DNA of 64,000 nucleotides from Mesostigma viride (taxonomy: Eukaryota > Streptophyta > Mesostigmatophyceae > Mesostigmatales > Mesostigmataceae). The notes beneath the pieces are model-generated. The model was given only the letters and a program-made list of their open reading frames with translations, made no database searches and was not told where the DNA came from. The position numbers and the translations under genes were made by a program. The stretch spans positions 2,910,837 through 2,974,836 of the forward strand of contig RPFO01000213.1 of NCBI GenBank assembly GCA_009746045.1, in the 5' to 3' direction. This document shows positions 9,720 through 60,931 of the stretch, piece by piece; position 1 is the stretch's first letter, and each line of letters opens with the position of its first letter.

Positions 9720-9787
<68 letters not shown>

Positions 9788-10196: not shown

Positions 10197-10536
10197 CTAC
10201 TGTTTGCTAGGGCCAATGGTCAGCTGAGAGAAGGTAACTGTAACTGCTGTCCCCTCCCCCTGGCTGCTGAGCGTGGGTGGCTTGGAGCATTCACGAGTGA
10301 TGTGCATCCCCTCAGGCAATGGCATATGTTCCCTAACAAACCTATCTGCATCTGCTAATGTTATCAAACCCTTTCCACTTAGCACTAGAGCCTTGGGACA
10401 ATATCTTATCTTTTATGTGTTCCTCACAAGTCTTCCAGCTGTAGAATATAGCAGGTCTACCCTTATCCCCGTCGTGAGCTACTGCATAGTAAGGATATCC
10501 AGACTGTCCACCCTTGTTTATTTTACGTCGGGGCAT
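10197..10536 (-). pseudogene. Viroplasmin / RNase H1 N-terminal-like small ORF in the Gypsy leader
   Basis: The ORF at 10536-10342 reads YPYYAVAHDGDKGRPAIFYS then W-x2-C, and after a one-base extra at about 10365 continues in the 10385-10197 frame as LADADRFVREHMPL. The pattern YYAV...G...IFYSW..CEEHIKD...AKWKGF...A..FVRE matches the hybrid-binding domain found at the N-terminus of eukaryotic RNase H1 and in caulimovirus viroplasmin, which binds RNA-DNA hybrids or dsRNA. Here it stands alone between the 5' LTR and Gag. About 110 residues; the frame break makes it non-functional as read unless that break is an assembly error. Confidence 0.65.
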
Positions 10537-10955
10537 GTTACATCATAGTCTGGCAGCGGCTTGCAAGCAGGAGAGAAAGGGGAAACCCAGGCTACCTCTA
10601 ATGCAGTGACCTTAAACAAACGAGGAGAGAGCACGGAGTGTAGTACAGCACACGCCCCCAGCCATCCGCGGCAAAGAGGCTATACAACGATTACACGGAG
10701 GTAAACACCGTCAACACAGTCGGCAACAGCCAGACGGTATTCACCCCCACAACATGTAAAACAACGAATGGTTGTCGTCCGCAACTTCCATTCGAACCAA
10801 CGACATTCACACCCTATAGAGGCACAACGTATAACGAGAACCCCTACGCGTGCGAACCCGGAGAGGAAGCGAGCATGCCAGCTAGCCTTCCACAGGCATA
10901 GCTTGTATCCTATCTAGGGGACGCACCATAATCGATGACGTTAAATCCTCCTGAG
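10537..10955 (-). other. Untranslated leader of the Gypsy element, no gene seen
   Basis: Between the viroplasmin-like ORF and the tandem leader motifs I see no convincing ORF and no RNA gene. It is transcribed leader if the 5' LTR promoter is used. Confidence 0.5.
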
Positions 10956-11160
10956 CTGGCCGCCACCCGGTGTCGTTGAAGGCAAGCCCTGGCCGCCACT
11001 AGGTGTCGTTGAAAACAGGAGAGCTGAACGCTATCGTTTACAGCACCTCACCACAGGACTATTGCTAGCCCCGCCGAGTATCCCAGACTGGCCGCTTGCT
11101 GGCTAGGTCGTCGTTGAATCCCTTTACGGGCTGGCCGCCGACCAGTCAGCAGTCGTTGAA
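10956..11160 (-). repeat. Four spaced copies of a leader motif
   Basis: On the plus strand a unit starting CTGGCCGCC and ending GTCGTTGAA occurs at about 10956-10980, 10989-11013, 11088-11118 and 11131-11160, with variable middles. Lying in the 5' leader just inside the LTR, this could be an RNA packaging or dimerisation array; that role is inference. Confidence 0.6.
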
Positions 11161-11255
11161 TTCCGGAACCTCTACCTACGTCAAACTCAGCCTTGGTATC
11201 CTAATTGGCTCACTAACCCTCTCCGCGAGAGTTAGCTAACCTTTCCAGCACATTT

Positions 11256-11268
11256 CCTCCGATAACCA
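11256..11268 (-). other. Candidate primer-binding site of the Gypsy element
   Basis: One base inside the 5' LTR the minus strand reads TGGTTATCGGAGG, which begins TGG as expected for pairing to a tRNA CCA end. It resembles but does not equal the initiator-Met site TGGTATCAGAGC; the priming tRNA is not identified. Confidence 0.5.
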
Positions 11269-11269
11269 G

Positions 11270-11851
11270 TGTTACGTCCCGGCCCAGACACACCTAGCCT
11301 GAGCTACGTAGCGAAAGACCCTTCTTGCCGGAATTAGGAATAATCCAAGATAGCCTAAAGTAGGTTGCGCTTCACGACGTGAGTCGTGAGATATCTGGCA
11401 TCACGGCTTAATGCCAAGCTAATTAGTTCACACTTATAATGGCTAGCAATACCAATTACAAATGGATAATGCCCCGGGCTCAATGTGTAGGCGTATTCGC
11501 ACTTATCAATCATTAAACCAAGAGGACGAGACTCTCGTCCTCGGACCAATTTAACCTAGGTTGATTGCGGCGCAGATACATGCCAATTTCCCTGGACCAA
11601 TCCAAGCCAAACATTCCACGTAGGATCCGGGCCGACATCGACCCTCAACTACAGGATCCACGCCTAGTACTACGAATGGACTCAGGACTGACGCGGCGCC
11701 ACCGCACCGGTGCCTAAAAGGGCAACCTAGGACCAAAATAACTAGTCCAATTCACACAAGAGTCAATGTCCATAAAACTTAGTACAACGGCCACAAGGCC
11801 TTAGTAATTTATTCCATTGTTACGTCCGACCTAAAGGGCCGGGACGTAACA
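11270..11851 (-). repeat. 5' LTR of the Gypsy element
   Basis: Direct repeat of 190-770 with 16-bp perfect inverted ends. It should carry the promoter for the minus-strand transcript. The adjacent 11852-11856 GGAAG is the target duplication. Confidence 0.95.
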
Positions 11852-28297: not shown

Positions 28298-28371
28298 GCT
28301 CTGTTAGCTCAGTTGGTTAGAGCACCGTGCTAATAACGCGGGGGTCACAAGTTCGATCCTTGTACGGAGCA
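28298..28371 (+). tRNA. tRNA-Ile(AAT)
   Basis: A full cloverleaf can be drawn. Acceptor GCTCTGT pairs with ACGGAGC (one G-T). D arm GCTC/GAGC with an AGTTGGTTA loop. Anticodon stem CCGTG/CGCGG closes the loop CTAATAA, so the anticodon is AAT. T arm ACAAG/CTTGT with loop TTCGATC, discriminator A. There is no intron and no encoded CCA. The A box (TAGCTCAGTTGG) and B box (AGTTCGATCCT) are good, and a T5 run at 28376 serves as Pol III terminator. It reads isoleucine codons AUU/AUC after A34 to inosine editing. Confidence 0.93.
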
Positions 28372-34391: not shown

Positions 34392-37300
34392 TCAAAAGTC
34401 TTCCTCAGACTCATCACTGGTTTGATACCCATCATCCTCATCAGTATTCTCATCATCTGTCTCCCTATAGTTCACATCAGCACGCAGTCTCCCACTCGAC
34501 CGCGTTCCCACAGATTGTGGTGGCACCGTTGCCGGAGCAGAACTTGGACCTGCCTCCGGGGCATCAGTCCCCTTGCGCTTTGTGCCTGGCCCAGCCCTTG
34601 GCGCTGCAGGTGCCTTGCCCTTGCCAAGGGGTGGCTTGGGTGCTTTGGTTTGACCCGCCTTCTTCTTCTTCTTCTTCGTCGTCGTCTTCTCGACAGTCTC
34701 CGCCGGCACTTCATCATCAGGGATATCAAGCACAGGCAGAGGATCCCAATCAGCCTCGAGGGAGCGCGTCACAACATTACTCAAAGGGCCCTGCGCGTCA
34801 TTGACCATGTTCCACGGCAGCTTGGCTGGAATCACCACCATTTCAGGCGCAAACGACTTGTCGACCACATACCCCACTGAACTGACCGATGTTGGCAAAA
34901 CAAACTTGGGGCTACGTGGGGCGTCGGCACTGCTGATCACAATCAACCTCTCACTAGGAAGGTGAGCGACATGACCAGGGTCGAAAAGCTCAACCCTCAG
35001 CACCAACTGCTTGGGCCATTCTACAGTAGGTGCAACTAGGGTCGTCTGCAAAATGTGCGTGATTACCCCAAACCCCAACTCACGATCCGGCCCATGGTAT
35101 GCAATCCCAGAATTACGGTGCCGAATGGCTTGTGTATTGTCGGCATGCTCGGTACGGTAGTTGAAGCCGTACATTCTGACTTTGTCAAATTCATCCGCAC
35201 ATTGGTTCACGCCTGCCACAGCTGCCTTGATGCGCTCAGGCACCAGAGGCGCCTCGTTCAATGCAGCCCAATGCTGCACGTAACCCAACTCCTTGCAGTA
35301 GTGCGCCCTGCATACAGAACATGCATGCAAGCACAATAGCAGGTACACAACAGCGTTACTATGGTCAACAATTAAGTTTGAGGGCCAAAAATGCAAAGCT
35401 TGTCATCACCAAAACACTCAAACAGCTGGACTACTATGCAAAAAACAACGTATGGAGTCCGCATCCGCAAAGCCTGATAAACTTTAACTAGCAAATGTCC
35501 AAAACCAGGGGCGAGCTTACCAGTACTCCTGGTCACCATTCTTCTCCGGATCGGTGTAAGTCGCGCGCTGCAGTGCATCCCCCACCAACAGCGCCCGCAC
35601 CTCCTCAAGCTCGCCTGAAGAAAAGCGGTAATGATTTTGGCGTCGGCGGCGGCCCAGCTCAACCATGCGCGAGGGGTCGGTGGTCAAAACATCCCAAACG
35701 TAGTACTTGCTCTTAATCTGCACAATGTGACATCAGATGCACCCACACATGGAGGGAAAAAGAAGACATGCTATCAGAAAGGATGCATGGCAAGAAAAAA
35801 CCAAGCAAAACTGCAAACGACTCAACCGAACAAAAAAAAATCACAATCAAAACAATCATATACAGTGAGAAACTACTTACCCCGGTCTGCTCATGGATGA
35901 AGTATGACAGGTACGTCAGCTCCTCGAACTCGTTGAATGAACGCTGGATGGACTTCTCCACATTTACATTAGACATATGGCCCGCTGTGACCGCCTGCAT
36001 CTCACGCTCACCCCAGGCCATGTTCCGACCGTCAGGAAGGCCGAGCTCGGATAGCTGGGCTGCCAAATGTGTTGCAGCATGCATTGAGCGGGACATTTCA
36101 CTGGCGGGAATCACCCGCTCCATGGCCACCTGACCGCACCATCATCTTCCCTACTTCATCGAGCTGCCCCTGCGTTAAAACACGGCCGCTGAAGGCACAG
36201 TCCCAGGCTGCGGAAGCTTCAAGGAACGCGCTCCGTGCGCGCGGATGCAAACGACCGCGCAGCAAAACCGGCAGATACTTGCACCAATAAACAATCTTAT
36301 CGTGGGTCTTGGCCTTGTGCTCTGGCTTCCCTTGCGCCAGCAGCCCAACGATGTTTCCCGTGAAGCAGTCTGGCAAGGACATGTTGATGTGCCTCTCAAG
36401 ATCTGCATAAAAGAACATGCCCACATAAAATAGCAACACAAACTGTGAGATTTAAGCCACATCTTTTAACGGAAAACACTTAATTAAACATGCAACCAAC
36501 TGTAAACAGCTAACAACAGGAGAAGTGAGAGTTAGCTTCAGACATTTTGATCCATTTAATAACCAAGGATTAAGTAGCTACAAGGACATGCATTGAAATG
36601 GAAAAGTCTTTTAATGAACGAGCACTTGGAATAAGCATTCTGTTGAAATAAACTTTTATAAGCAGCATGGACTATGAAATCATAACCATGCTCAGCCGCA
36701 CAACTCACCACAGATCTCGTTCTTCTCGCTCTTGGACAGCTGAAAAGCTGGCTGAGTGCCCTTGTACTTGACTGTGGTCTTCTCCGTTCCATCAGCAGCA
36801 ACCGTTGTGGTCTCCTCCTTGGTCATCCACAAGTCAGGGCTCAGATTGAGATCCTTGAGGCGATGCCGTACCGACCTGGTGGCAGCTTCACCTGCATGTG
36901 CACGTACCCAAATACGCAACCATAAAAACACATAAAAAAAAGTTTAGTAAGTTCCTTTTGGCCATAAGGTGGCATGCGTGCAGCAAACTTCCAAGACTAA
37001 AAATACCAGACAGTTCAACAATGACAAAAATCAAATATCTTACCACTCGTGCAATTCCCGAGGCGAAGGAAGAAATTCGAAGCCAGGTGGAACTCGTCAA
37101 TGGCATTCCGGCATTGCAGGGCTGGCCAGTACGGAAGCCGCGAAAAGGCCTCAGGTAGGCGCTCGTTGTCCTCACAATGGTTCAGATATTCATCATAAGT
37201 CATGTCACCCGGGTCGGGCTGCGTGGTAACACGACGTGGGTCAGTGTCAGGGAGCATGCGGTCATTGCCCAGGAATACAATCTTGCCCTTTGAAAAATAC

Positions 37301-38586
37301 GTCCCCTTCCACTTTGGGCCATGTTTTAAACACCCGTCATACCCTGCATCCGGCATGTTGATCAGCTTTGCAAATGCGGGATAGTCATGCATGGTCATCA
37401 GCAGCACCACACGTATGAATGCAGTTTGGAACTCCCCCTTGGCGTCGTCAAGTACATCACATATATAAAACCCTTTGAAAAGCTCTATTAGCTCGTCTAC
37501 GAATAGGTCCAAGAAGATGCGCATCTTTTGGGGGGCTCGCCCTCGGTGTGCTCCCACCAGGAGGACCATGGGGCAGAAATGCTTGTTGATGTGGGCCCAC
37601 TCAGGCAGATTGAAAAAACAGACCATGCATGCGGCCAGCAGGAATATGTGTCCAGCCAGTAGCGAGGGCATACACCGTCAAAGCAGCATCCGATGAAAAG
37701 ATTTCTCGGATCAGATGCAAGCTCAGGGAACAAGTCCAAAAGCCGCTGCCAGGCCCTTGTATCTGCACTCAGGGACGCACAAGAAAACAGTTCAAACCAA
37801 GGAAAAAAGCAAACATGCACGCAAAACTTAGTCCAGGTGCCTTGCTGCACGAGCCAGAGCCACAAATCAGCATACCTTGAGGATCAACAGCAGCGGTGCA
37901 CAAGAACAAGCTTTCAAGGGAAATATTTTTTAAAAAAGGGACATTAAAAAAGCGGAAACGACAGCGCCAAACTGACCTTTAATCCCGTGGATCTTCTTCT
38001 GCGGGTGGTCAGGCTCTTTGCTTCGGTTCTCCGCCGCGTACCTAAATGCTTTGGCCATCACCGGTATTCTGAAAAGGCCCCTGATCCGGTCCTTCAGGGA
38101 AAACTTGCGAACCTGCCGATGCGGTCTGGTGGTCACAACCGTCTCTCCACTCCGGTCTTCATAGGTCTCATACCGGTTCAGCTTGCAAACGGGGCATTGC
38201 TTTACAGTCTTGTCTTTATACAGATACTCGTCGCATGGGCACGCATCGTACACTTGGTAACCCAGCCCTAAATTATTCATCACAGACTTTGCCTTGGCCA
38301 CCGACGCTGGAAACTGGTTGCCCGGTGGTAGTATGTCAGAGAAAAACTTAAAGAGCTCATCGGCAAACACGGCGGATGCGCTGTTCTTGCCAAGCAGAGA
38401 CAGGAGTTCCAAAGACGTGGCGAGGGCCATCTTAGACGACCCGGGATAGAGGGGTGTGTCCGCACGAATGCTTTGCACAGTTTCCTCGAAATTGCGGGCA
38501 AAATCACGGGCCTCCTGCTCAGGCCCGCCATCGGCAGGCATGCCACCCATCATGTAGTCATCGACAGACCCGTGCATGCTCGCCAT
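34392..38586 (-). CDS. CACTA transposase, TNP2 family, six exons
   Basis: Exons on the minus strand: 38586-37977, 37762-37044, 36891-36709, 36402-35881, 35717-35521 and 35307-34392. All junctions are GT–AG and joined codons keep the frame. Total is 3,147 nt, about 1,049 codons. Exon 1 has the cysteine signature YQVYDACPCDEYLYKD...CPVCKLNRY of TNP2 transposases. Exon 2 carries the core: FPELASDPRNLFIGCCFDGV, FNLPEWAHI, FYICDVLDD, MTMHDYPAFAKLI. The last exon ends in a Lys-rich run and an acidic tail. Two frame faults remain, a one-base loss near 37600 and a one-base gain near 36130, which cancel in length. The ATG follows directly after an AG, suggesting a 5' UTR intron. The protein should cut and rejoin element ends in the nucleus. 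Confidence 0.85.
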
Positions 38587-39739
38587 CTGGAACCGATAAA
38601 ACAAGTTAAACAACAAGGCTGAAAACGTGTGAGAGGGCCTGCATCAAGTCAAGATGATGCAGGCCCTCCCACCCTACGTCATGATGGCTGCCCGAGCTAC
38701 CTACATTCCAGAAGGAAGATGGTCAATCAGTCATGATGGCGGCACTGTCGCTATGGCTGTCCTTAGCGCAGGTCTCCCAAATTGTAAGGTAGATACACCG
38801 TGTGGTTGTTGTCCCGGTTGCGTGAGAAGGCCCAAACCTCGTGCGAAGGTCCAAACGGTGCAGTGTCGTGTGGCCGTTGCTAAGGTAAGAGATCCGATTT
38901 TTTTTAACAATAAAATTAGTTTTAAAACAAGGCAGCCGCATACTGTATGTGACGAGCCTGGCACCACCGCGACGTGTTTCACTCTGGTGAATGGAATGAG
39001 ATTCCTGCCGGCAAAATACAACGACTAGGATCCAACAAGATCAATCTCTGAACGTCCAGATTTTTTTTGCGTCGCGCAATAGAGTTTTGGTCGATAGCAA
39101 AGAAGCGCTTCCGTACTAGACGAATTTAGATAAATTAGTGTGGGTGGTTCCGCTTACAGCACTGTTGATAGCAGCTGATTTAGACCAATTAGTCATTCCG
39201 GTGTGCTGAAACAAACTTGGACCAACTAAGGAGAGACGTGAGATGTCAGGCACGATATTCTTAGTTTTTTCCAATCATAATGATTTCTTCACAGTTACGA
39301 AACAGGCGTGGGAATAAGTAAGCGTTGGATAGCACGCGCTGTAAGATAGTGACCTTGCTTGAGTGACTGACGGTTGCGAAGGTACCAAAGGTTCCGAATC
39401 CGATTCCCTCCAGGCAATTGCGTCAGCCGCTGCATGTGCCCAGGGACCACTTTTGCCGCAATTTCGAATTTCCGGCGCGGTGAGCTTTTTTTGGCCGTCC
39501 GATTTTCGCAGTGCAAGATTCCTTGCACGTTGCGCCTGCTGTTGGCAGTGGCCGCGCCAACTGCCAACAGCCAAGGCAACTGCAAACGACAAAGAACTTG
39601 GAAAGGCGCGGTGTTTGAAAACCTCCATCGCGTCTTGCTCCTCCACTGGAAGTTAACAGGAAGCTCTGAAATTTGACACTGGAGATTTGATCGTGAGATG
39701 GTGATTCTGATGCTGTGCTCGTGAGATGGTGATTCTAGG
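38587..39739. promoter_or_regulatory. Divergent intergenic region of the two CACTA genes
   Basis: About 1.15 kb between the transposase start and the second gene, presumably with both promoters. It holds a GTTGGCAGT...ACTGCCAAC inverted repeat near 39540-39570 and a 20-bp tandem (CGTGAGATGGTGATTCT) at about 39691-39737 just before the second gene. No ORF I can support. Confidence 0.45.
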
Positions 39740-43175: not shown

Positions 43176-43180
43176 CCATT

Positions 43181-43781
43181 TGTTATATTGTGGGCTCGCA
43201 GTCACATAAAGTATTGGAATTTGGTTATGCTCGGAATTGGCTAAGTCCGGAGGTCAGCCGGCAGCGCCGCGCTGAGGTTTATTTGCTGGGCCGGCGGTCA
43301 GTGGGAATTTATGTGTACGGTCAGGCAACGGGTCGTAGGTTCTGGCTGTGGGCTATTTTGGGTTCTGGCCATTACCGTTCGTTCCGTGGGCAACCTTGGT
43401 TCCGTACCGTTTGTCCAGGCATGCAGTGGGGAGGATCTCGGTTGCGGTGCGTTATGTTGTGGAGTGTCGTTTGGGAATTATGTTGGTGTATTTCGGTTGG
43501 TTTGTACTTGGGTACGTTCTCAGGCCCACGCCGTTGCTCAGCGTTGGGTGAAGCCACAGAGCTACTCGCAGTGATGACCTACAGCGGAGCATTGAGTCAA
43601 AGCTGTTTGGCGGCGTGAAAGGCCGACACGCAGGAGAAAGCTTTGAATCACGTTGCAGCAAATGCTGTCAATGGCCGACGTTGTCGACATGTCCGGGGCT
43701 GGGCGCTGAGCGAGTAATCTATTTTGTTACGTCTTTTTATTATTCGGAAATACAATACACTTAAAGAATTTTATTTTAACA
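43181..43781 (+). repeat. 5' LTR of Copia-1
   Basis: 601 bp, TG...CA ends, about 99.3% identical to 49497-50098 by eye. It contains the promoter for the gag-pol transcript. The first bases inside (43782 on, TGTACTAGGTTGGGGCC) should be the primer site, but they do not start with TGG and I cannot name the tRNA. Confidence 0.95.
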
Positions 43782-43818
43782 TGTACTAGGTTGGGGCCGT
43801 AATTTTACAGCATAAAAC

Positions 43819-45046
43819 ATGGCAGCGTCAGCTGGGAGAAAACGGAAAGCAATTCATAGTGATCCGTCGACATGGGCCGCTGACCTACGAGCTGAAAAGG
43901 ATCTGTTAGAACTATTTCGAAAGCGTGTGGAACCCTTGCTAGCGACGCACCCACGCTCGTAGTGCGTGACTATATAGAGAGAATAGAGGCTTTTCTGAAG
44001 GACCATGGTGAGAAGATCAGCAGTGTTTATTCGCTTTTCCGAGATGCCGGTTTGCTGAGCTGCGACAATTTCATTCTCGCATTTACTCTTCGAGCATGCA
44101 AGGATGAGAAGGTAAAACGGCGTCACATCCCAGGTAAGCTGCGTGAGGCGTTGTTGGAGTCGAAGGAGGGCACGACCTCTAGGCTATGCAGCATTTACAC
44201 CTGGGTGCCACAACGGCCTTACTCACTCGATTTACTCAGCCTTCGCAATTTGCGGAATGAGTCTGTGCTCAATGGACTAGAGGTGTCTGAGACAGCGGTG
44301 ATAGACCGTTACGTGAGGATGGCCAAGGACCTGAATTTCCAGACTGTGATGGGAGCCCTGCGTGCAGGCCAAGCCAAGGATGACCTTACCAAGGCAATAG
44401 AGATCATTACCGGCCTGGTAGAAGGGGAGGAGAGGGACATGATTGCACAGCTGAGAGCCCAGGGCAAGCTGACCGAGTCTGGGTTGATGGCCCCTGCCCC
44501 TCCCCCAGCCGCTCCCAATTCTGTGCCCCTCCCTGCACCCTCTGTGCCAAGCACTGTTACCCTGCCAAGCCACAGGATGCAACGGGCAAGGTTGCCGGTG
44601 TCAACAACAGCAAGCCTGCTGGAGTAGGCAACGGTGGCAAGCAGCGTGGTGGAGGCCGTGCCCGTGGTGGCGGGCGCGGTGGCAGACGTGGGCTGTGGCA
44701 GGGCAGGCCATTGGTGCAGCAGCAGAGACAGCAGCAGCATTATGCCCCAGCACAGCAGGCAGGACAGCCGCATTATGCTTCACAGCCGCCGCAGCCGCAG
44801 CAGCAGTTTGCACAGCAGCAGCAACAGCGGCAGCCACAGAGGCAGGAGTCTGGTGCATGCTTCATATGCGGGAGAAAGGGTCACCTGGCACGCACATGCT
44901 ACAATAGGCACGCTGACAGCATGCCAGCTCGCAGCAATAGCAATGCACAGGGCCCTGCCGTGTGTAACCGCTGCAAGCAGCCAGGACACTTTGCACGTGA
45001 CACGCACCTGTGCCCGGCGGCCCAGAGTGGGGGCCGTAGGCAGTGA
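43819..45046 (+). pseudogene. Copia-1 Gag, ending in a UGA in frame with Pol
   Basis: Starts at the ATG 43819 (MAASAGRKRKA), 37 bp after the LTR. Two apparent one-base losses (about 43950 and 44565) move the frame to that of the zinc-knuckle part, which is open to 45043. Helical capsid-like middle (FLKDHGEKISSVYSLFRDA, VIDRYVRMAKDLNFQTV), a Gly/Arg patch, a Gln-rich stretch, then two knuckles: CFICGRKGHLARTC (CX2CX4HX4C) and CNRCKQPGHFARDTHLC (CX2CX4HX7C, unusual). It ends CAG TGA CTAG at 45041-45050, and Pol continues in the same frame. Confidence 0.8.
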
Positions 45047-45050
45047 CTAG
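45044..45050 (+). promoter_or_regulatory. Candidate stop-codon readthrough site UGA-CUAG
   Basis: The Gag stop UGA is followed directly by CUAG, and the downstream frame is open into Pol without another stop. UGA followed by CUAG is the best-known efficient readthrough context in eukaryotes. This would give a Gag-Pol fusion at a low ratio. Confidence 0.6.
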
Positions 45051-45082
45051 GGTCCGGTGGTGAGGGTGAGGCAGCTGGTGAT

Positions 45083-48000
45083 GTGCCAAATATGCGAGCT
45101 AGTGCGGGGCAGCACGGCTCGACCCCCCAGGCTAGCTCACCCCGCCTGGGTGCTCGCGTGGCAGCGCTAGATGAGAGCGCTGGTGAGGAGGGGGACCATG
45201 CAGAGCAGGGGGCAGTTGCAGTAGGGGATGAAGCACTGTCTCAGGGAACGAGGGAGAAGGGGGTTGGAGGAGGTACTGCAGGTGTACACACTGCAGTTCT
45301 GGACGGGCCACCGGTACGAAGGTCCTCCCCACACCCGGGACCTCAGGCACAACAGTCTCAATGTCCATTGGAGGCAGGTGGTACACTCAGTGTACTTAAC
45401 ATGGCAATGAGGTTACACACACGGTTGGGTCATGGCCACGCTGCAGAGCATTGGGCAGCATCACTGGGGTTTTCGGAGCTGGTGGCGACGTGCAGAGAGG
45501 TCTGGCAGAGGTGTAAGCATTGTCAGCGCAATGTGCCTAAGCCGCACAAGTTTCATGCACGTAGACCGGTGCTAGAGAGGGGCCCGGTGCAAGTGGATGT
45601 GCTCAAGTACGATGACAGGGAGTATGTGCTAGCGGTGGGGCGGTTCTCCAGGTTCAAGGCACTAGAGGTGTTGCCACGCAAGCACAAGGAAGAGCTGCTC
45701 ACCAGCCTGCGCTTGGTAAAGGCCAAGTTTGCCGTGGTGTCAACTTTAGAGTGTGACCAGCAGTTCGAGTGTTGCATGAAGGAGCCGGGGTTTGAGCAGA
45801 TTGTGGTGGCGGGTGCGGCAGATCACGAACATCAAGGGTTAGTGGAGAGACATATCAGGACCTCCAAGTTTGTGATGAGTGCTATGGCCAGGATGCGCTC
45901 GCTGTCGTACCGCGATCAGGCTCTGTTGTGCAGGCAGATAGAGGAGCACATGAATCACAGGGTGATGGTCAGGGTACATGTGGATGGTGAGGAGGTAGCC
46001 GTCACGCCCCATGGGTTGGAGATGGGCCTGCTCCCGCTGGAGGCGGTAGAAGCATACCGTGATTGGCTGTGTGACCGGTACCTCAGGCTGGTGGACATGG
46101 ACCTGCGCAGGGGTGATGTGTACGTGCCTAGCGAGGGAGCAAGGGTGTGGGCGTACCGGGAGGGAAGTGCTTTGGAACAGGGTTTGTGGGAGGGCCCTGT
46201 TGTGGTCAAGTCAGTGGACGGTGACCACATGTTGGCGAAGGTTGGGCGTGAGGACCGCCGCTTCGACCGACTACTGGCGTGGAAACACTTGCGGCCGTAC
46301 TACGAGGGGCTAGGTGCGCCAGCAGACCTGCCCCATGAGGAAGGTGCGATGGGCTCCAGCGCGCAGGCTGGAGGTGAGGCGGGGGACCCAGGGACGGCCG
46401 CAAGGGGGGTGAGAGAGGAGACGGGGCCTGATCAGCCTGCGCCCTCTCTTCCGTCGGATGGTGGGTTGCCACTGTCCAATGGCGGTCCAGCCAGTGTGGG
46501 ACCAGGCGGGCTGGGGGTTGCCCCTTCCGCTGATGGTCAGGAGGTGCAGCGCGCGACAATGTTTGCCCGTGTCATTGAGCGGCTGCAGGAAGCCCGGCGG
46601 GCAATCGCGGAACGCGAGCAGCCGGGGGGCACGTTACCACGGGCCGGCGGGGCGGGCAGGCCGTCGGCTGTAGGTGGGGCGCCTCAGGCCGGCGAGGGAG
46701 CCGTAGGAGGGCCACCACAGTCCAGCGAGGCCAATGCAGGGCCAGCCGCAGGTGGAGAGGCACAGGCCGGCGATGCTGGCGCATCGACCGCAGGTGCGGG
46801 GCTACAAGCCGATGGCGCTGATGGGTCGGCTAGCACCCGGCGCGAGTCACTGAGTGGCGGTGATGGCTCCGAGGGCGGCGGCGACGTCGCAATGGAGGCT
46901 GGTAATGAGGTAGCCTCGGTGTCTAAGCTAGTGGATTTTCAGCAGGACGGGCTGGCTGGGTGTCGGTTGGAGGTGGATACTAATGCGGTGGTGTGCTTGC
47001 TAGGTGAAGGGGTAGCTAGGCACTTCCCGCTACAACCGTCCAAGTGGAACTTTGTGGAGGACTTTTCTGGGGTGGTGCGCATGCCGGTAGTGGGCGAGGT
47101 GATGCTGACCATTCTTGGGCGTGACACTCCTTTCTGCGTGCTTGAGGGCTATGATGGGCCGGCGATTCTGGGGCTGCCATTTCTTAATCACCCTGATGTT
47201 GTGATCCAGAGCTCTAGTTTGACCAGGGAGGGCCATGGGTCGATAGAGTTGGAATCGTACAAGGCAGTGCAACCTCTCAGTCTCGTCTCAAGCACCGTGG
47301 CTAGGCTAGCAGCACTGACAGGGACAGAGGGTGTGGCGTGGGGAAAGGATCTCCCGCCAGCGGTAGACCTGGTCATGCCTGCGTTGTTGCATCCATCCAG
47401 CATCGGTATTACCAAGCGGGACATCGCTGCACATTCTCCGATTGGCTATGAGAGGCTGGTACTAGAGATGTCGACGCAGAGTGGTTTCTCCAGCTGGTGG
47501 TGCGCGTTTCACAGGGCGCTGGAGGAGTGGCAGGGGTATGGTGTGTATGAACCAATGGACAGTGTGCCCAAGGGGGCCAAGGTACTTCCTCTCAAGATGG
47601 TGTTGTCTCACAAGGTAAAGGCTGGGGTGGAGGTATGCTATGTGAGGCCGGTGTCGCAGGAGTTTTCGGGAACCAGTGAGCTGGCCAAGGAGGAGCTGTA
47701 CACCCCAGGTCTGGCGTGGGATAGCTTCAGGATTATCACCATGCTGTATCTCGGTTTCCTGGATGAGGGCAGAGACTATGGGTGTGCGTCTATTGATGTC
47801 AAGCGTGCTTTCCCTAACTCTAGCGAGGAGGTGGCGCGTGAGGTGTGGGAAGGCACGTCACCCCTGGTGGTCCAGACACCCTCGTTTTGGATGGAGGAAG
47901 TGAGGGCAGAATTCATGGGCTTGTTGAAGGCCATAGAGGGACTGCAGAGTGCCTCGATTGTGTGGCGTATCACTTTGATGCGTGCTCTGTTTGAGCTGAT

Positions 48001-49009
48001 GACATTCGAGGTATCCCCGTACGACCCTTCGTTGTTTGTGGCACAGACTCCCTCAGGTCCCTTGTTTGTACAATTGCATGGGGATGACCTGCGAGTGGTA
48101 GCACCCCGTGCTGTTCTGCATCAGTTCTATGCAGATCTCGCTAAGCGTTTCCCTGTGGGCGAGCTGCAGGTGGTGGACCAGCAGACTCCGCGTGTCTTCT
48201 GCGGTGTAGTGCAGACCCTGCGAGTGACGTCTGGTAGGCATCAGATGCACCTGGGTATTCCTGACAAGTATCGGGAGGAGCTGATGGGCTCGGTGGATGA
48301 GCTGTGTGCTAAGGGCCTGTGGAGCCGCCTGCGTGGCAAGCTAGGCTGGATGGCGGCAGTGTGTGCGCCCGATCTGGTGGTGCTGAGTAGGACGGTAGAT
48401 GACGTGTTGTCGCAAGTCCATCCGTCGGTTGTGAGGCAGTATGTGGCCGAGAGCCAAGGTGTGGTGCTTTCTGGCCTGTCGGTCTCTCAGCCCGCTGTTC
48501 TTCACTGCTTTGCAGATACGTCGGGTGAGGGCAGGGAACTGACCAAGCTGAGGGCACGGATGGGTGGTCTGTTTGTGCTCTGTAACCCAGGGGGTCGGGG
48601 ATCGCTGTGTGGGTGGTATTCGAGACTGTGCAGGCGTGTGGCAGTTGGCTCTGACACTAACGAGTGCCGTGGTGTGTGTGAGTGTATCAAGGCTTCGCTG
48701 TACCTCGAGCAGTTCTTGCGCTGGATGGGCAAGTGGATGGGTGTCCGTTTGGTGCTGACGACAACTGTGCATACGGATAGCCAGCCGCTTGTGAGCTTTA
48801 TCCTTAACAGCTTGTCCAGGACGCGTGACCTCGATTTCCTGCTGTTGAAGGAGCTGTCTTACGCGGTGAGCGTTCTCCATCTGCCGGGGAGGCTGAACCC
48901 GGCGGACGCGGTGACCAAGCTGTTTGCAGCAGCGCGAGAGCAGTATCGCATCTTGCGGATGGTGATGGCAGGTTCTCTTGGGGATCTGCGGGAGTTGTTG
49001 GTTGTTTGA
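45083..49009 (+). CDS. Copia-1 Pol: integrase, retropepsin, reverse transcriptase, RNase H
   Basis: Open for about 1,308 codons, and in frame back to the UGA at 45044. Residues are counted from 45083. About 111-150: HHCC module (LHTRLGHGH...CKHC). About 170-255: integrase core with D in VQVDVLKYD, D in LECDQQFE and E in QGLVERH; 29 residues lie between the second D and the E. About 350-400: GP-containing C-terminal module (LWEGPVVVKSV). About 410-610: Ala/Gly/Pro-rich linker. About 615-720: retropepsin-like, EVDTNAVVCLLGEG then AILGLPFLNHPDVVIQ. About 820-1100: Copia RT with CASIDVKRAFPNS and LFVQLHGDDLRVVAP. About 1140-1290: RNase H with CFADTS, NECRG and HTDSQPL. No protease motif exists between Gag and integrase. 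Confidence 0.9.
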   Translation: MPNMRASAGQHGSTPQASSPRLGARVAALDESAGEEGDHAEQGAVAVGDEALSQGTREKGVGGGTAGVHTAVLDGPPVRRSSPHPGPQAQQSQCPLEAGGTLSVLNMAMRLHTRLGHGHAAEHWAASLGFSELVATCREVWQRCKHCQRNVPKPHKFHARRPVLERGPVQVDVLKYDDREYVLAVGRFSRFKALEVLPRKHKEELLTSLRLVKAKFAVVSTLECDQQFECCMKEPGFEQIVVAGAADHEHQGLVERHIRTSKFVMSAMARMRSLSYRDQALLCRQIEEHMNHRVMVRVHVDGEEVAVTPHGLEMGLLPLEAVEAYRDWLCDRYLRLVDMDLRRGDVYVPSEGARVWAYREGSALEQGLWEGPVVVKSVDGDHMLAKVGREDRRFDRLLAWKHLRPYYEGLGAPADLPHEEGAMGSSAQAGGEAGDPGTAARGVREETGPDQPAPSLPSDGGLPLSNGGPASVGPGGLGVAPSADGQEVQRATMFARVIERLQEARRAIAEREQPGGTLPRAGGAGRPSAVGGAPQAGEGAVGGPPQSSEANAGPAAGGEAQAGDAGASTAGAGLQADGADGSASTRRESLSGGDGSEGGGDVAMEAGNEVASVSKLVDFQQDGLAGCRLEVDTNAVVCLLGEGVARHFPLQPSKWNFVEDFSGVVRMPVVGEVMLTILGRDTPFCVLEGYDGPAILGLPFLNHPDVVIQSSSLTREGHGSIELESYKAVQPLSLVSSTVARLAALTGTEGVAWGKDLPPAVDLVMPALLHPSSIGITKRDIAAHSPIGYERLVLEMSTQSGFSSWWCAFHRALEEWQGYGVYEPMDSVPKGAKVLPLKMVLSHKVKAGVEVCYVRPVSQEFSGTSELAKEELYTPGLAWDSFRIITMLYLGFLDEGRDYGCASIDVKRAFPNSSEEVAREVWEGTSPLVVQTPSFWMEEVRAEFMGLLKAIEGLQSASIVWRITLMRALFELMTFEVSPYDPSLFVAQTPSGPLFVQLHGDDLRVVAPRAVLHQFYADLAKRFPVGELQVVDQQTPRVFCGVVQTLRVTSGRHQMHLGIPDKYREELMGSVDELCAKGLWSRLRGKLGWMAAVCAPDLVVLSRTVDDVLSQVHPSVVRQYVAESQGVVLSGLSVSQPAVLHCFADTSGEGRELTKLRARMGGLFVLCNPGGRGSLCGWYSRLCRRVAVGSDTNECRGVCECIKASLYLEQFLRWMGKWMGVRLVLTTTVHTDSQPLVSFILNSLSRTRDLDFLLLKELSYAVSVLHLPGRLNPADAVTKLFAAAREQYRILRMVMAGSLGDLRELLVV

Positions 49010-49478
49010 GCTTGGACCCTGTGGAATTTTAGCCTGTGGCCAATTTGAGAACGTTGTTTGGGCCGGGGGTGATCCTTATGCCTGCCCTATACTGATGGTG
49101 ACCCGGCACGGTTGGATAATTTGCTCCATAATTGATTTGGTGGGGGAGTGTCCTTGGTTGAGGACTGGTGCGGTTGGAACGGGTTTGTAATGTGTATGGG
49201 TCGTGTGGGTGTGCCGGGGTCAAGGGTGGTCGTTTAGATCAGTCTTGTATTCTCGCTTGCTTACATGACTTACTTCAGACACTGGCAGTATGTGCAAGGC
49301 GTGAATGGGCGCCAAGTTAGAGGGGTTGGAGCTCCCCTAGTACATAGCGTCTTGTGCGTACTGTCTCCGAGAGTGTTTGTGAGTAACCCTTGGGTGGTGG
49401 TGGATATTGTGAGGATTGTTGGCATGTATGTCGACTGTGGGTTGTGGTTAAGTGGCCGAGTGGTGGATGTGACTGCTC
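49010..49478 (+). other. 3' untranslated region of Copia-1
   Basis: Non-coding DNA between the Pol stop and the polypurine tract. No ORF of interest. Confidence 0.6.
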
Positions 49479-49496
49479 GAAAGAAAAAGGGGCTGG
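49479..49496 (+). other. Polypurine tract of Copia-1
   Basis: GAAAGAAAAAGGGGCTGG ends exactly at the 3' LTR. Confidence 0.8.
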
Positions 49497-50098
49497 TGTT
49501 ATATTGTGGGCTCGCAGTCACATAAAGTATTGGAATTTGGTTATGCTCGGAATTGGCTAAGTCCGGAGGTCAGCCGGCAGCGCCGCGCTGAGGTTTATTT
49601 GCTGGGCCGGCGGTCAGTGGGAATTTATGTGTACGGTCAGGCAACGGGTCGTAGGTTCTGGCTGTGGGCTATTTTGGGTTCTGGCCATTACCGTTCGTTC
49701 CGTGGGCAACCTTGGTTCCGTACCGTTTGTCCAGGCAAGCAGTGGGGAGGATCTCGGTTGCGGTGCGTTATGTTGTGGAGTGTCGTTTGGGAATTATGTT
49801 GGTGTATTTCGGTTGGTTTGTACTTGGGTACGTTCTCAGGCCCACGCCGTTGCTCAGCGTTGGGTGAAGCCACAGAGCTACTCGCAGTGATGACCTACAG
49901 CGGAGCATTGAGTCAAAGCTGTTTGGCGGCGTGAAAGGCCGACACGCAGGAGAAAGCTTTGAATCACGTTGCAGCAAATGCTGTCAATGGCCGACGTTGT
50001 CGACATGTCCGGGGCTGGGCGCTGAGCGAGTAATCTATTTTGTTACGTCTTTATTATTATTCGGAAATACAATACACCTAAAGAATTTTATTTTAACA
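49497..50098 (+). repeat. 3' LTR of Copia-1
   Basis: Direct repeat of 43181-43781, ending TTTTAACA, followed by the CCATT duplication. Confidence 0.95.
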
Positions 50099-50700
50099 CC
50101 ATTGCTGCGATCGCTCTCCCACCATTTACGAGGAAATACCCGCAAATGGAAAACCACTGAAAAGGTAGCTAGTCAGTCATCACGTTAGCCATGCCATGAT
50201 TCCAAACGTCCAAGAACTGCACACGGTGCAAAGGCAAAAAGCCGGAGGACAGCACTTTCAAATGTGCGGCGGGAACCAAAAGCCCGCGGATGCCAGAAAA
50301 CATCGTGTTGCTGCAGCGACGCGACGATGTGGACAACGAATGATATGTTTGCCCATGTTCAAGATATGTTTGCCCATGCCGTGTATTTTGCATGCATATC
50401 ATGAATTTTTGCGTAGTAGGCTGTTCACAGCCATGTCACCCATTCATAACGTATCATTGGAACATCTCTTGATTTTTAAAGTTACGGCTGTTGCTGCTAC
50501 TGCTTGCTTTCTAATGTATGAACTGTATGATTTTCATCCCTTGTATTTCCCTGATTTTCGTATATGTTTGTGGAGCAGAAAAGCGGCCCACCGGCGAAGC
50601 GCCAACGCACCTGGAGCAAGGACTCGTAGTCCCATTTCGGATAACTGCCATGGGTTGCCGGGGCGCTGCATGCCAGGGTGCAGGGATTGCCATATGCAGG

Positions 50701-54242: not shown

Positions 54243-54686
54243 AGTTGAACGCCCTTCACCGCTGGCTATAGCACGCCGGCGATGGAGACGGGATTTTTGT
54301 TGTTTGGGGAACCGATTGTGGGAGGCTGAGCCCGCAGCCGCCACTGATTGCTATTGAACCCTTGCAGCTGCAGCCAGGCCGCAAGGAGCTCAGCGGCGCG
54401 GCGCTAACCGATAAGGCATGCTCGAGCCTAGCTCTAACCCGAGACTACCGGTAGGCTACCCGATAGTGCATGCTCGAGCCTCTACGTACCCGAGACTACC
54501 GGCACTCAGCGGATCTGTGCTACCGAGGGCGACGGTTCTCTGACCGTCCCGGCGCGCACTGGCTTCCGTACCTTGCTTAGGCACCGACTAGCATCTAGAC
54601 ACCAATCTTTGATGCCCACCTGACTAGGCGCCCAGGCCGGCGACTACCGGCCAGCCAGCGGATAGATGCCACTCGGGAGCACAACT
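54243..54686 (-). repeat. 3' LTR of Copia-2
   Basis: 444 bp, near-identical to 60486-60926. The two differ chiefly by four or five indels of 2-4 bp and about one substitution. A purine tract (AAAAAGAAAGTATGGG on the minus strand, 54687-54702) abuts it inside. Confidence 0.92.
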
Positions 54687-55023
54687 CCCATACTTTCTTT
54701 TTAAATAATTATCATAAATTATTTAAAGCGAGGGGCAATAGGGTAGCACTGACCCTACGTACGTTCAAGTAGAGAAACACGTAACGGCACACTGGCCGTC
54801 CCCAAATCCTAAACCCCAAGGAGGGTGCCCTACGCTGGGATCTGAGCACGCCAAAAACACCCGGGCTTTGCTCCCGGCCTCCTTTTCTACTTGGGTGCAA
54901 CTGCACCACATGCATCATTATTAGGCACACTGGCCGCCTGTCAGGTCTAGGGAAATGTATTCACAGATGAAAGAAGCGCCCATTCCCATGCAAAAAGACG
55001 ACAGGTCACACGGTAAAAAAAAC

Positions 55024-56934
55024 TCATGTCATCATGAGCTGCCGCAGCAGCTTGTACTGAGGCCCCGACAGCATCGCTGGCTTGGTCAAGGCATCGGCAA
55101 TATTCTCGCTCTCGGGGATCCACCGCCGCTCATCCAACACCGTGGCGGACTCGGCCAACACAAGGTAATCTAGTTTGGTGGTGGAGGCGAGCGGGTTATT
55201 CAGAAACTCAATTATTGACTTGCTATCTGTGCACAGCCGCATGCGGAGCGACAGCGCCACGCGGGCCTTATCCGCAATCCATTGCAAAAGATGCTGCACA
55301 TAACACGCATGGGTCGACAGCGGAAATGAACGCGCGACACTCCGCGCGATTGCTGTCTACCACTACCCGCTGATGGATGCGGCTATACCAGTCGACAATA
55401 GTGGGCTGCCCAGTGGGGCTATCAAGAAAAAAGATGGCCGCCTCCCGCGCGCGCAGCTGCGTGATGGTACGCGACTCCAGGTTCGCGTCAGAGTAAATGG
55501 TCATTGCCACCGGGCGGGTGATATCAACCCCCCACACGCGCAGGCCCGGTGACGCCAAGACTTGCGTCCGAAGATGCTGCGCTCCCATGCCCGCAAGCAC
55601 GGCGTCGGGCGCACGCGCGTAGATGGACAGGTCGGGTCGCACCGTGCCCGCGAGCCACCCCAGCTGGCCGCGCAATTGCGGTCCCGCGGACGCATCCAGC
55701 CGCTCAGGCAGCGATTGCGCGAGCTTGTCGGCGTATTCCTGCTTGGCCGCCATGTCAATGCACCAGCCAACCGGTGTGCGGTGCAAAGTGTAGGTTAGGC
55801 CACAGAAAGGGACGGGGGTGTCGGGGTCCAGCCACAACGTGCGGCTAGTGGGCAAAAGCTTGGCCACAGCGGTTATGAACTGCCGGACCCACGCCCGGGG
55901 TCCAATAAGCCGCCAGTCATCCCCATGCCATTGCATGAACGCGGGCTCGTGTGGGTTGGGTGTGTGGATGTGAAAGAGGTTGCTATCGATGCGGGAAAAC
56001 ACCGCCCCCATGCTAGCAAAGATGCGTTCAGCCGTCTTGCGAAAGATGATGGGGCTAGACTGCAGGCCCTCCACACCAAGGAGAAGCCGCAAGTACACAC
56101 ACCGCAGCTCCCCCTGCCACACCAAAGGGACCTTGACCACGTGCCACGCCACACTTCCTCGGCCACTGCCGGGTCGCTATGGAGAAAGGCCCGCTGAAAA
56201 TCTGAGCAGGCCATGGCATAGTCCAACCCCCGATCCAACAGCCCCAAGAACACCGATGTTAACACCCGGCTAGTGGTCTGCGACAGCCCGGGCGTAAACA
56301 ATTCCTCCTCCGACAACTCAGACGAGCCCCTAAACTCCGTGACACAGGGCCGTACATGAAATGTGACAGGGTCAGTGGGGAGGACCTGCTTATACTTGAG
56401 CACAAACTTCAAGTTCAGCTTTACCGCCCCTTGCGGCACCTCCATCAACTCCCCATACACCCCATACATCGCCCACTCCAGCTGCGCGCGCAAGAAAGCC
56501 GCGCGCCACTTATGGAACTTGACAGGGTCACGGCAGTCCTCCTTAAACTGCGGATAACTAACAGGAGATTTAGTGGCGATGCTCCAGGGAAAAATGCCAA
56601 GACTGCTGGGGTGACACTTCTGCGGCTGCGTGACATCGGCTACCAGCGGCTCTGCCGTATATTCCGCCCCGCGAATGGCCCCTACTGCAGTGGCATAATC
56701 CTCAGGGTGATTAATAGCCTCGGGGGGACCCCGGCCCGTGAGGGCTGCAAGCGCTACGTGATATTGGTACAAGCCTATGCTCCCCACCCCCTCGAGGGTC
56801 ACCAAGCCGGCTGACACAGAAAACCCGGGGAGGGAAACAAAAGGGTTACCTATGAGGGTGATCCCCTTGTAACCCTCTAGCACTTGCACAGGGACATCTA
56901 CCCCTAGGATGGGCATGAGCACCTGCCCAGCCAC
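55024..56934 (-). pseudogene. Copia-2 protease end, reverse transcriptase and RNase H
   Basis: Frames 56934-55873, 56152-55268 and 55299-55024. It begins with the second half of the retropepsin (VLMPILGVDVPVQVLEG, TLIGNPF). RT follows: YAMACSDFQRAFLHS near 56200 and FMQWHGDDWRLIGP near 55920, the same HGDD as in Copia-1. RNase H has TIYSDANLESRT, SNRAECRAF and LCTDSKSIIEFL. The last part (RRWIPESENIADALTKP) is the normal Copia C-terminus. Three frame segments joined by one-base shifts near 56140 and 55290. Confidence 0.85.
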
Positions 56935-58579
56935 CTTATAGCCCGCTGCCCGTCAAACCCCGCAACCTCCTTCCAACTACTGGGCAGCAAAGGGTAATAG
57001 GCCTCGGCCGCCGCCGGGCTCGTGATAGACACGCCTGCCATGGTATCTATGGCCGCAATATGCCTAGAGGGAACATCATGAGCTTCAGTCACAACCGTGG
57101 GGCACTTATCTGGCATGACGCGGCTGACTTGTGCCGCACCCCCCGCTGCCGCCGCCTTGAGCTTGTCCGCCTTGAGCAGCTGTCGGAGGACGTGGGCCAG
57201 CTGGGAGCCCACGCCCGCGCCTGACGATGTGTCCGGCGCCGCCACGGTGGGCGCTGCTGGGGTCGCGGGGAGGGGCTGAGGTAGCGCCCCCGCGTCGACC
57301 CCGGGGACTTGCTCCGGCGCGGCGCCTGCAGGGGGGTGGGCAACAAGCGCATCATGCACAGCCACCCCAAGTGGGGTGGGTAGGACAGGTTCCAGCCGGG
57401 CCCGCTTGGCCGGCCGGCTATCCACATCCCAACCGAGCTGGCGGCTGTGCTCCTTGGCCGCCTGGACCTGGGCATCGGACGCCTTGTACCGATACACCTT
57501 ATCCCACGGGATGAGATAGTCCCTATGCTCCCAGTGCACCTTCACCCGCCTATGCACCCAGTCCAAATCCACCACCATGCCTGGCCCTTGCATCTGCCCC
57601 CGCTTGCCAAAGGAATTCTCCTTGTGAAACAAGACCAACTCCCCCAGCTCCCACTCCTGCGACAAGTCAGGCTGGGTGCGGTCTAACTGCCGCCTAACCT
57701 CAGCGGTGGTAGCGAGGTGGGCCTCCCAATGGTCTGCCACGTCCGGAGGGTAAATGCCCGACTGCAGCCCCCGCGCGGTAATAAGACCTAGTCCCTGGGG
57801 CAGCTTGAAAAGCACCTGGCTGTTGTACTTGTCCATGAGCAAGCGGCACCACAGCGCGCGTTGTGCATAAGGCTGCCCCGCGGGCTTGAATCCTAACCCG
57901 CTGGCCTGCTGCTTGGCTGCCATGCCCTTTACGCTGCTGATGTGCCTATCAATCAGCCCCAAGTTGCCATGGTCCTGCCGCCCAGCAATAACCACCATCT
58001 CACAGCCCTCCCGCCCCACAATGCAATCAAATTGTTGGTCCAACATGACCTCAGAAATGGGAAAGAAGTGAGACATGGCAATGCGCAGCCCCCGCCACAA
58101 GGACTCCTCTACCATGCTTGGCAGGGGCTCGATGGCTAGGAACTTGGTATAGCGATCCATCAAGACCAAATAATAGTCCCCCTCCTCCAAATGCATGACA
58201 TCCCCAACTAACCTCGATCCCCGGTACGGGGAAGGAGTCTTATAGCATGCCAGCGCCTACGCTTCTTCCTGACACTTGCGCATGCGTGGCACTCCTCTAA
58301 CTCCGCCTGAGCGACCTTCAACCCTGGCGCCCCCATAAGCCGAGTCGCCCAGTCTAGCGTTTGCCCCGCCACATGACCCACCGCAAGGTGAATCTGGTGA
58401 GCAAGCATCCGCAATCCTATGGCCGTGGGGGTGGTGCCATCCCCTTCTATGCTAGGCACCTGCCCCGCCAAGCTCTCTGCATGTGCATTCCTGTCGGCAA
58501 TGTGCTCTAGTGAGGCCTTACTGAGGCGGCGACCCAACTCCACGTCTACGTGAGGGTCTACCGCGGCATCTGCCGGCAC
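56904..58579 (-). pseudogene. Copia-2 integrase and N-terminal half of retropepsin
   Basis: HHCC module in 58579-58208 (HQIHLAVGHVAG...CHAC). A one-base loss near 58245 leads into 58230-56904. Core: D in RLVGDVMHLEE, D in EVMLDQQFD, and an Asp where Glu is expected (LGLIDRHISS), 29 residues after the second D. C-terminal module with GQMQGPGMVVDLDWVHRR, then a Pro/Ala linker, then AAIDTMAGVSITSPAAAEAY, the retropepsin active-site segment. A one-base loss near 56935 separates it from the rest of the protease. Confidence 0.82.
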
Positions 58580-58775
58580 TATCTCACCTGCATGAAGGGG
58601 TGAGCTCCGGAAGGGCGTGTTCAGGCTCTATTGCGACCACGCTGGGCACGCACTCCTGATCAGCGGCAGCACTTGCACTTCCATTCTGAACCACTGACGT
58701 GGGAACATTAGGACTACAAGGCACAGCATCCTCACGCCTAGCCGACTCACCGCGACACACATCACCTCTATGACG

Positions 58776-60438
58776 TCACTTGGGCATGGCTGGCCGTGGG
58801 GCGCGGCATGTGTTGGGGTCGTGTCCAGGAAGCCGAACCGCCCAGCAGCGCCGGCACACTCGAGTCGCCTTGCCGAGGTCCAGCCGCAGCGTGCAGTTGG
58901 CCTCGGTGTGCCCCACGCCGGTGCACCGCTCGCAGACGACCTCCTCCTTGGGGACGCCAAGCAATAGCCCTAGCAATTGTAACCATTGGAGTCACTGCCG
59001 CTAAGGCAGCCATGCCTAGAATGTTCGCCTAGCTGTGCCAACATACCTATATAGTCACGTGCCGCCAACGCACGGTACACAACCAGCCATAGCCTTAGCC
59101 TACAGCCATGTAGTCCTAGTACAGCCATGCTACGCCCGTGCTATGGTCAGATTACTTGCCCACGCTATACTTGTTATGCCCCGCTTACATGGGTCTTATT
59201 GCACCCACAGTTTGCCGGATCGTTAGCCTGTCCTTTTAGTTAGCGCGCCCGATTGCAGCTCAGTGTGGCATGCCTTTGGCATGAAGGACACTGGGGGTCT
59301 CTGCCCTTTCTCCTGTGGTGCACACACAGGGATTAAAAGCACTTCAGTGCTCCGTGACTCCCCAACGGGAGCACGTGTTTAATTGGGGACGCCACCCTGC
59401 TGCTGTTGCTGCCTGCCAGTGCCGCCCTCCTGTCGAGGCTGCTTGCCCTGACCGCCTCCCGGCCCGCGTTTGCTGGACGCGTTCTGGTTGTGCCGACCAC
59501 CGCGAGCTCGGCGTTTGCCACCCAACATTCGCACCACATTGTCGGCCACCGTCGTGGACAGCTGGGTAACAAGAGTGGTCAAGTCCGACAGAGAAGCTGC
59601 TGGCGGGGTCGAGGCAGGCACAGGGTTTACCTGAGCAACTGTCGGCAGCTTGTTGTTACGCCTGGGGCCGCCCCGGTCCTTGAACATCTCTCGGAGGTGC
59701 GCCATGGCCGCGTTGAACCGTTTCTGGTCGTCCGGGGTGCCCACTACCACGGAAGAAGCTAGCGCAATTTTCATGCCGAGACCGGCCTTGACATTGGCAC
59801 GGCTCTCTGCATGGCGTCAGCCCCAGCGCATCCAGAACTGCGCTGAGTAAATATTCGCTACTCATGTGCATGCTTCAAGACACCCTTGCTCCGGACCTGG
59901 GCCGCGAATCTGGCCATGTCCGAGCTGAGGTATTTGGGGTCAAGCGACAGGTTGCGCACCAGCGCCTGCCCCTCCTTTTCGGCTTTTCCTCGTCAGGAAA
60001 GCTTGAGGTGTCGAGCACCTCCTGCAGGGCCTTCACTGTGTCGGGCCAGGTCCACGCCTCTTTGCTGGCGTTGATAATGACCCCTCGCACGTCCGCATTA
60101 CCCGTAGCCTCGTTGCATACCTCTGACCGGCGCAGCTTGGTGAGGAAAACTGCGTCGGACAGTTCGTTGTAGTCCTGCCGGAGCTCGCCCAGGCTGTTAA
60201 TAAACTCCTCCACGGCGGACGGCGTCAGAATTTCTGGCAGCTTACTTGGCAGCTCTTCTTTCTTGAAAACTTTCCGGGCAGTTGCATGGTGCTGACTGCT
60301 GCCCCGGAGCTGTGCTGACCGAGCCACCAGCTGGCTCAGTCGCCACGGTGGCTGCGCCACTCCCATCCGCCGGAGTTGATGCTTGCGTTGATCCCTGGTC
60401 CTGGTTTGGAGCTGGCGTTCGCTCCGCGCCACGCGCCA
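58776..60438 (-). pseudogene. Copia-2 Gag, interrupted by a 423-bp insertion
   Basis: Likely start at 60438 (MARGAERTP). Capsid-like helical part (EEFINSLGELRQDYNELSDA, KEAWTWPDTVKALQEVL), then about 59774-59395 (DDQKRFNAAMAHLREMFKD, with a basic Gln-rich end), then after the insertion 58947-58776 with two knuckles: CERCTGVGHTEANC (CX2CX4HX4C) and CRRCWAVRLPGHDPNTC (CX2CX7HX4C). Removing the insertion and one 12-bp duplication joins ...GGVP to KEEVV... in frame. Other frame faults remain near 60290 and 59880. Confidence 0.72.
58960..59382. mobile_element. 423-bp insertion with 12-bp target duplication
   Basis: Flanked by TTGGGGACGCCA at 58948-58959 and 59383-59394. Contains repeated AGCCATG words and an inverted GTGCTCC...GGGAGCAC pair near the right end. 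No ORF. The long duplication suggests a retroposon; no poly(A) or TTAA tail is seen, so the class is open. Confidence 0.7.
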
Positions 60439-60485
60439 TGAGCCCAGAAAAATGGTCAACGGTAATGTTGACTGTTGTGAATACA

Positions 60486-60926
60486 AGTTGAACGCCCTTC
60501 ACCGCTGGCTAGCACGCCGGCGATGGAGACGGGATTTTTGTTGTTTGGGGAACCGATTGTGGGAGGCTGAGCCCGCAGCCGCCACTGATTGCTATTGAAC
60601 CCTTGCAGCTGGCCAGGCTGCAAGGAGCTCAGCGGCGCGGCGCTAACCGATAAGGCATGCTCGAGCCTAGCTCTAACCCGAGACTACCGGTAGGCTACCC
60701 GATAGTGCATGCTCGAGCCTCTACGTACCCGAGACTACCGGCACTCAGCGGATCTGTGCTATACCGAGGGCGACGGTTCTCTGACCGTCCCGGCGCGCAC
60801 TGGCTTCCGTACCTTGCTTAGGCACCGACTAGCATCTAGACACCAATCTTTGATGCCCACCTGACTAGGCGCCCAGGCCGGCGACTACCGGCCAGCGGAT
60901 AGTAGATGCCACTCGGGAGCACAACT
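60486..60926 (-). repeat. 5' LTR of Copia-2
   Basis: 441 bp, AGTTG...CAACT ends; partner of 54243-54686. The first inner bases on the minus strand are TGTATTCACAACAG, the expected place of the primer site; the tRNA is not identified. Confidence 0.92.
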
Positions 60927-60931
60927 CCGCG

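Follow-up and report, generated by a model that had tools for sequence, protein, structure and literature searches.

The order of domains in the polyprotein serves to separate the superfamilies of long terminal repeat (LTR) retrotransposons. In canonical Copia elements the protease (PR) precedes the integrase (IN), which lies ahead of the reverse transcriptase (RT), whereas in Ty3/Gypsy elements IN lies behind RNase H (RH). Tca2 of Candida albicans is kin to Copia and has the canonical order, and Gmr1-type Gypsy elements provide a precedent for an altered Pol, with IN moved ahead of a Gypsy RT and PR still in first place. The dinoflagellate DIRS elements described by De Mendoza et al. 2018 (PMC5890265) show differing domain orders and are a different case. 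Here we describe an LTR retrotransposon (element 1) at positions 43181-50098 of a 64,000-nucleotide stretch (the window) from the streptophyte alga Mesostigma viride (assembly GCA_009746045.1, contig RPFO01000213.1, positions 2,910,837 to 2,974,836, forward strand), in which a retropepsin-like domain sits between IN and RT, giving the order Gag-IN-PR-RT-RH. Positions below are those of the window, and the features of element 1 all lie on its forward strand.

The Pol open reading frame (ORF) of element 1 spans 45083-49009, encodes 1,308 amino acids and is open throughout. The HHCC IN (45401..46312, residues ~107-410) is followed by a low-complexity linker of ~200 residues (46313..46909), by the retropepsin-like domain (46910..47317), with D632-T633-N634-A635 inside EVDTNA (630-635) and ILG (695-697) inside ILGLPFL (695-701), and by a Copia-type RT (47453..48337), in which RVT_2 matches residues 827-1032 (E 9e-12). 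The region behind it (48338..48952) has no Pfam match and would be RH, judging from its position and from conserved acidic residues in the alignment. A first-pass annotation, made from the sequence alone, had placed a protease between IN and RT and none ahead of IN, and both statements hold. A Pfam scan of element 1 in pieces (E<=10, with HMMER filters removing most matches above about 0.1) found no protease in the two Gag pieces, the zinc-knuckle piece, the knuckle-to-IN piece or the linker, of which 46310-46890 has no Pfam match of any kind; the sole protease match in the scanned pieces is a weak one to gag-asp_proteas at 46892-47290 (E 0.22). Element 1 is a recent LTR retrotransposon and has both the paired LTRs and the target-site duplication expected of Ty1/Copia: the 5' LTR (43181..43781, TG...CA, ends read in the sequence) and the 3' LTR (49497..50098) are 99.5% identical by self-BLAST, a polypurine tract with approximate ends (49479..49496) precedes the latter, and the element is flanked by a 5-bp duplication, CCATT, at 43176-43180 and 50099-50103.

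The arrangement recurs in the 440-Mb assembly, in which copies were counted from incomplete lists of genome matches. Among 58 scored matches listed, at least 18 full-length copies, the window's included, are stop-free and 99-100% identical over the window's PR-RT query, and a second family has a 1,196-residue frame common to all 38 scored matches listed. For a piece of a second element in the window (element 2), 13 of the 118 matches listed lie inside a 1,249-residue frame. IN, then PR, then RT were read in the sequences of representatives of five further families (L011, L041, L042, L044 and L045, with IN in two other frames in L042) and also in an outside protein, P0001. The Pfam matches of P0001, all below cut-off, fall in the same order: rve at 214-265 (E 0.15), gag-asp_proteas at 557-628 (0.086) and RVT_2 at 751-923 (0.014). 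Another database protein, P0002, is 99% identical to Pol over 77% of the query, and a search of viral and prokaryote contigs found nothing. Since the order is common to the window element, five other families and P0001, it does not belong to one rearranged copy. The earlier claim of a fully open Pol that is no rearranged fossil stands for Pol, and needs qualification for Gag, which shifts frame twice in the window copy.

The genome also contains canonical Copia elements, which offer a direct comparison. A genome search with RVT_2 gave at least 150 matches, all above cut-off, from which five loci were fetched and four (L047-L050) scanned; the fifth, L051, was excluded as a near-copy of L048 by reading. 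All four carry Pol_BBD (protease), then rve, then RVT_2, in agreement with the canonical order assumed by the first-pass annotation, and their IN-to-RT stretches measure 220-259 residues. SH3_retrovirus and gag_pre-integrase are present in all four (the latter mostly below cut-off), and these two families and Pol_BBD are without a match in the window Pol (E<=10) and in five other Pols of the new lineage (E<=1). The lineage shares with L047-L050 a CCHC Gag, an HHCC integrase ahead of RT and an RVT_2-type RT, and differs from them in having PR after IN and an ILG rather than an ILS motif. In three of the four canonical PRs (L047, L048 and L049) the active site reads DSA in place of DSG, in families with many open copies.

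Kinship of the inserted domain with retropepsins is supported by profile searches. A profile of seven PR sequences (A2: the window element, L011, L041, L042, L044, L045 and P0001), compared with 177,635 PDB sequences at E<=10, returned six matches, all of them retropepsins and none below E 0.09: DDI1 (0.092), DDI2 (0.33), one HIV-1 protease, and three chains named as protease or tethered-dimer protease. In both DDI matches the catalytic Asp is in register and the alignment extends beyond ILG. A column-shuffled control profile gave three matches to unrelated enzymes, with no retropepsin among them (best E 0.41), and a linker-only profile gave one, to an antibody chain. A profile of the canonical Copia PR likewise finds one chain, an unrelated one, so strong E-values are commonly lacking for such proteases. 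Within the family, gag-asp_proteas matches four of the seven members in register, none above cut-off and at best with E 0.0028 (a piece of P0001). All seven sequences keep the Asp, Thr and Ala of DTxA as well as the Gly of ILG, and some 60 residues after the active site each has a motif of the ILG type (ILG, LIG or LLG), a non-Copia feature on which the first-pass annotation had not remarked. When the family was aligned by hhalign with one Gypsy PR of the window, the N-terminal half was in register (E 0.0034, 0/150 shuffles as good), as was the C-terminal half (E 0.023, 3/150); with the canonical Copia PR the alignment was in register at the active site (E 0.055, 5/150). Probabilities were low throughout these alignments.

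The domain is also under selection. Between the window element and L045, the ratio of nonsynonymous to synonymous substitution rates (dN/dS) is 0.12 in PR (0.10 in its core), compared with 0.07 in RT and 0.06 in RH, whereas the linker ahead of PR reaches 0.47 and the piece N-terminal to IN 0.78. The comparison with L044, in which synonymous sites of PR have reached saturation, gives amino-acid identities of 0.78 for PR, 0.74 for RT and 0.54 for the linker. Conservation of PR thus comes close to that of RT, to which PR is joined by a conserved stretch, and a loose linker separates PR from IN. This conservation suggests that the domain would have protease activity, and we consider it likely, whatever its history, that an active retropepsin lies between IN and RT in these elements.

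A number of observations weigh against that reading. No single PR attains the Pfam cut-off, three of the seven (L045, L041 and L042) lack a protease match at E<=1, and the best PDB match has an E of 0.09. The glycine of D[TS]G is absent from all seven, which have N, D, M or Q in its place. By hhalign, PR scores as high against the canonical Copia RT (raw score 16.7, E 0.11) as against the canonical PR (16.4, E 0.055), and HMMER with the PR profile, run on 1,565 segments translated from the window and L047-L050, recovers the window's own PRs but finds neither Gypsy nor canonical Copia PRs at E<=10. AlphaFold, run twice, gave poor models both times, with a predicted local distance difference test score (pLDDT) of 48 and 62, and there was no retropepsin among the four structure rows listed. 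The fold was not confirmed by structure prediction. The stretch from PR to RT is conserved like RT (dN/dS 0.09 against L045), which leaves the RT side of PR without a visible loose linker for cleavage, and part of the high dN/dS of the linker toward IN is owed to its low dS (0.66-0.79; against L045, dS is 0.66 in the linker and 1.29 in PR, and dN is 0.31 and 0.16). Finally, 13 of the matches listed have equal extents, covering query residues 138 to 767-769 with frames of 636-638 residues that begin inside PR. The one that was read, L046, has a frame change inside PR, and since such copies have been amplified, spread does not seem to call for an intact PR in cis, barring recoding of the change; these copies presumably spread with help in trans or by recoding.

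Two explanations would account for the domain in the absence of an active enzyme. It is very unlikely to be an unrelated beta domain with DTxA and ILG motifs arising by chance, considering that the PDB matches are all retropepsins with clean controls, and that gag-asp_proteas matches in register in four of the seven sequences. A retropepsin relic, retained for dimerisation, folding or substrate binding while cleavage is left to a host or trans protease or does not occur, would fit both the replacement of the DTG glycine throughout and the amplification of the subfamily that L046 represents. It would not lead one to expect a catalytic Asp and Thr that are invariant across families whose sequences are 33-39% identical to the window's, and the DSA of three of the four canonical Copia elements means that loss of the glycine is no mark of dead elements in this genome. 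We consider a relic unlikely.

Of the enzymes on either side of PR, RT is of Copia type and the integrase is divergent. The IN acids are D172, D225 and E255, the last two being separated by 29 residues (measured in the window element, L011, L044, L045 and L042, and by eye in L041), compared with 35 in canonical L047 (counted by eye). In L041 and L042 an Asp stands in place of the Glu, though the L041 family is multi-copy. The H, H, C and C of the HHCC module are invariant in all six rows of the integrase alignment (A5). At E<=10 the corresponding profile has 23 PDB matches (best E 0.11), of which 21 are to chains of integrase or Pol, covering at most profile positions 38-172. Pfam matches rve weakly in three of the six members and Agenet in one, and the C-terminal part may be SH3/Tudor-like. 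RVT_2 matches the window RT with E 2e-12 in the scan of pieces and is above cut-off in the window element, L044 and L045, below it in P0001, and without a match at E<=1 in L041 and L011. The family RT aligns to the canonical Copia RT with E 3.4e-12 by hhalign (0/60 shuffles as good; identity 21-27%). Its active site is HGDD in all seven members (48077-48088 in the window), in comparison with HVDD in the RTs of all four canonical Copia elements.

PR itself resembles the proteases of Ty3/Gypsy elements and DDI1/DDI2, with DDI1 as its best PDB match, in being an ILG-type retropepsin, while the Copia-type RT and the position of IN ahead of RT, not behind RH, separate the lineage from Ty3/Gypsy. 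According to Llorens 2009 (PMC2642776), the PRs of Ty1/Copia usually have ILS where almost all others have ILG. On this account we favour a replacement of the protease over a simple move: a non-Copia, ILG-type and Gypsy-like retropepsin probably entered the long IN-RT spacer of a Copia element, whose original PR before IN would then have been lost. The alternative, granted an active retropepsin and concerning history only, is that the original Copia protease moved, or IN moved upstream, by internal rearrangement without anything foreign. The position of IN ahead of RT, as in Copia, agrees with this, as does the alignment in register with the canonical Copia PR, which 5 of 150 shuffles equalled. 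The C-terminal motif speaks against it, being ILG, LIG or LLG in the lineage and LLS in all four canonical elements of this genome, as do the slightly better alignments of the Gypsy PR pieces. The case for capture is built on one motif and on the comparison with one Gypsy PR, so that a simple move, though less likely, is a real alternative. Whether the elements form a separate superfamily-level lineage, with a chimeric Pol composed of a Copia RT, a divergent D-x29-E/D integrase and a captured ILG-type DTxA retropepsin that has no need of the glycine, appears to us evenly balanced; such a lineage would have been overlooked because Pfam barely detects the PR and reference collections drop unexpected domain orders.

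The Gag of element 1 (43819..45046) ends with two CCHC knuckles (zf-CCHC, E 4e-9 over two stretches in the scan of pieces) and a TGA at 45044-45046. Its translations change frame twice. The first change is missing from both of the other copies read and the second is present in both, and in L053, of another family, Gag lies in one open frame. Given the two frame changes in Gag, the open Pol does not by itself make the window copy autonomous. A single UGA separates Gag and Pol in the same frame in all five families with the stop inside the locus (window 45044-45050, L044:103, L045:102 (-), L041:186 (-) and L011:1462, as coding-strand positions; L042 is uninformative), and is followed by CUAG in three of them, as in the window at 45044..45050, and by CGU or CUU in the rest. 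UGA-CUAG is reported as a readthrough motif in mammalian genes in PMC4132726, and in Tca2 a UGA likewise divides Gag from Pol (PMC2194720). The UGA is a probable site of programmed readthrough. The lineage, with its Copia-type RT, would replicate in the usual way from a Gag-IN-PR-RT-RH polyprotein: Gag would be made together with a minority of Gag-Pol by readthrough of the UGA after the Gag knuckles, and the retropepsin may dimerise in the particle, excise itself and cut the polyprotein, among other sites in the loose linker toward IN.

Among the papers listed by searches of the open-access literature on the architecture, on algal hosts and on readthrough (Repbase and subscription journals lay outside its scope), none describes in its title or the start of its abstract an order with PR between IN and RT, in line with the suggestion of the first-pass annotation that the architecture would be previously unrecognised. 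Neumann et al. 2019 (PMC6317226) state that elements with an unexpected domain order were always removed as likely mispredictions. If the IN-PR-RT lineage is real and multiplying, a filter on domain order can throw out real biology, the protease would be an exchangeable module, and a PR adjoining Gag would not be required for polyprotein processing. The DTxA active site, if active, would also test the tolerance of the retropepsin loop.

Element 2, on the reverse strand at 54243..60928, has the same architecture with LTRs 97% identical and broken Pol frames. Its PR is split over two frames (56746-57071), with PR-profile matches in the segments 55876-56952 and 56907-58256, and L041 is its open-frame relative (99.4% identical over 4.0 kb). 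Elsewhere in the window, ORFs at 34392-38616 on the reverse strand may belong to an EnSpm/CACTA-like transposon, which they resemble, and Rfam identifies a tRNA gene at 28298-28371 on the forward strand. A probable Gypsy element occupies 188-11851 on the reverse strand, with LTRs 99.5% identical, a poly-Gln tract near 9570-9787 and a PR in two frames.

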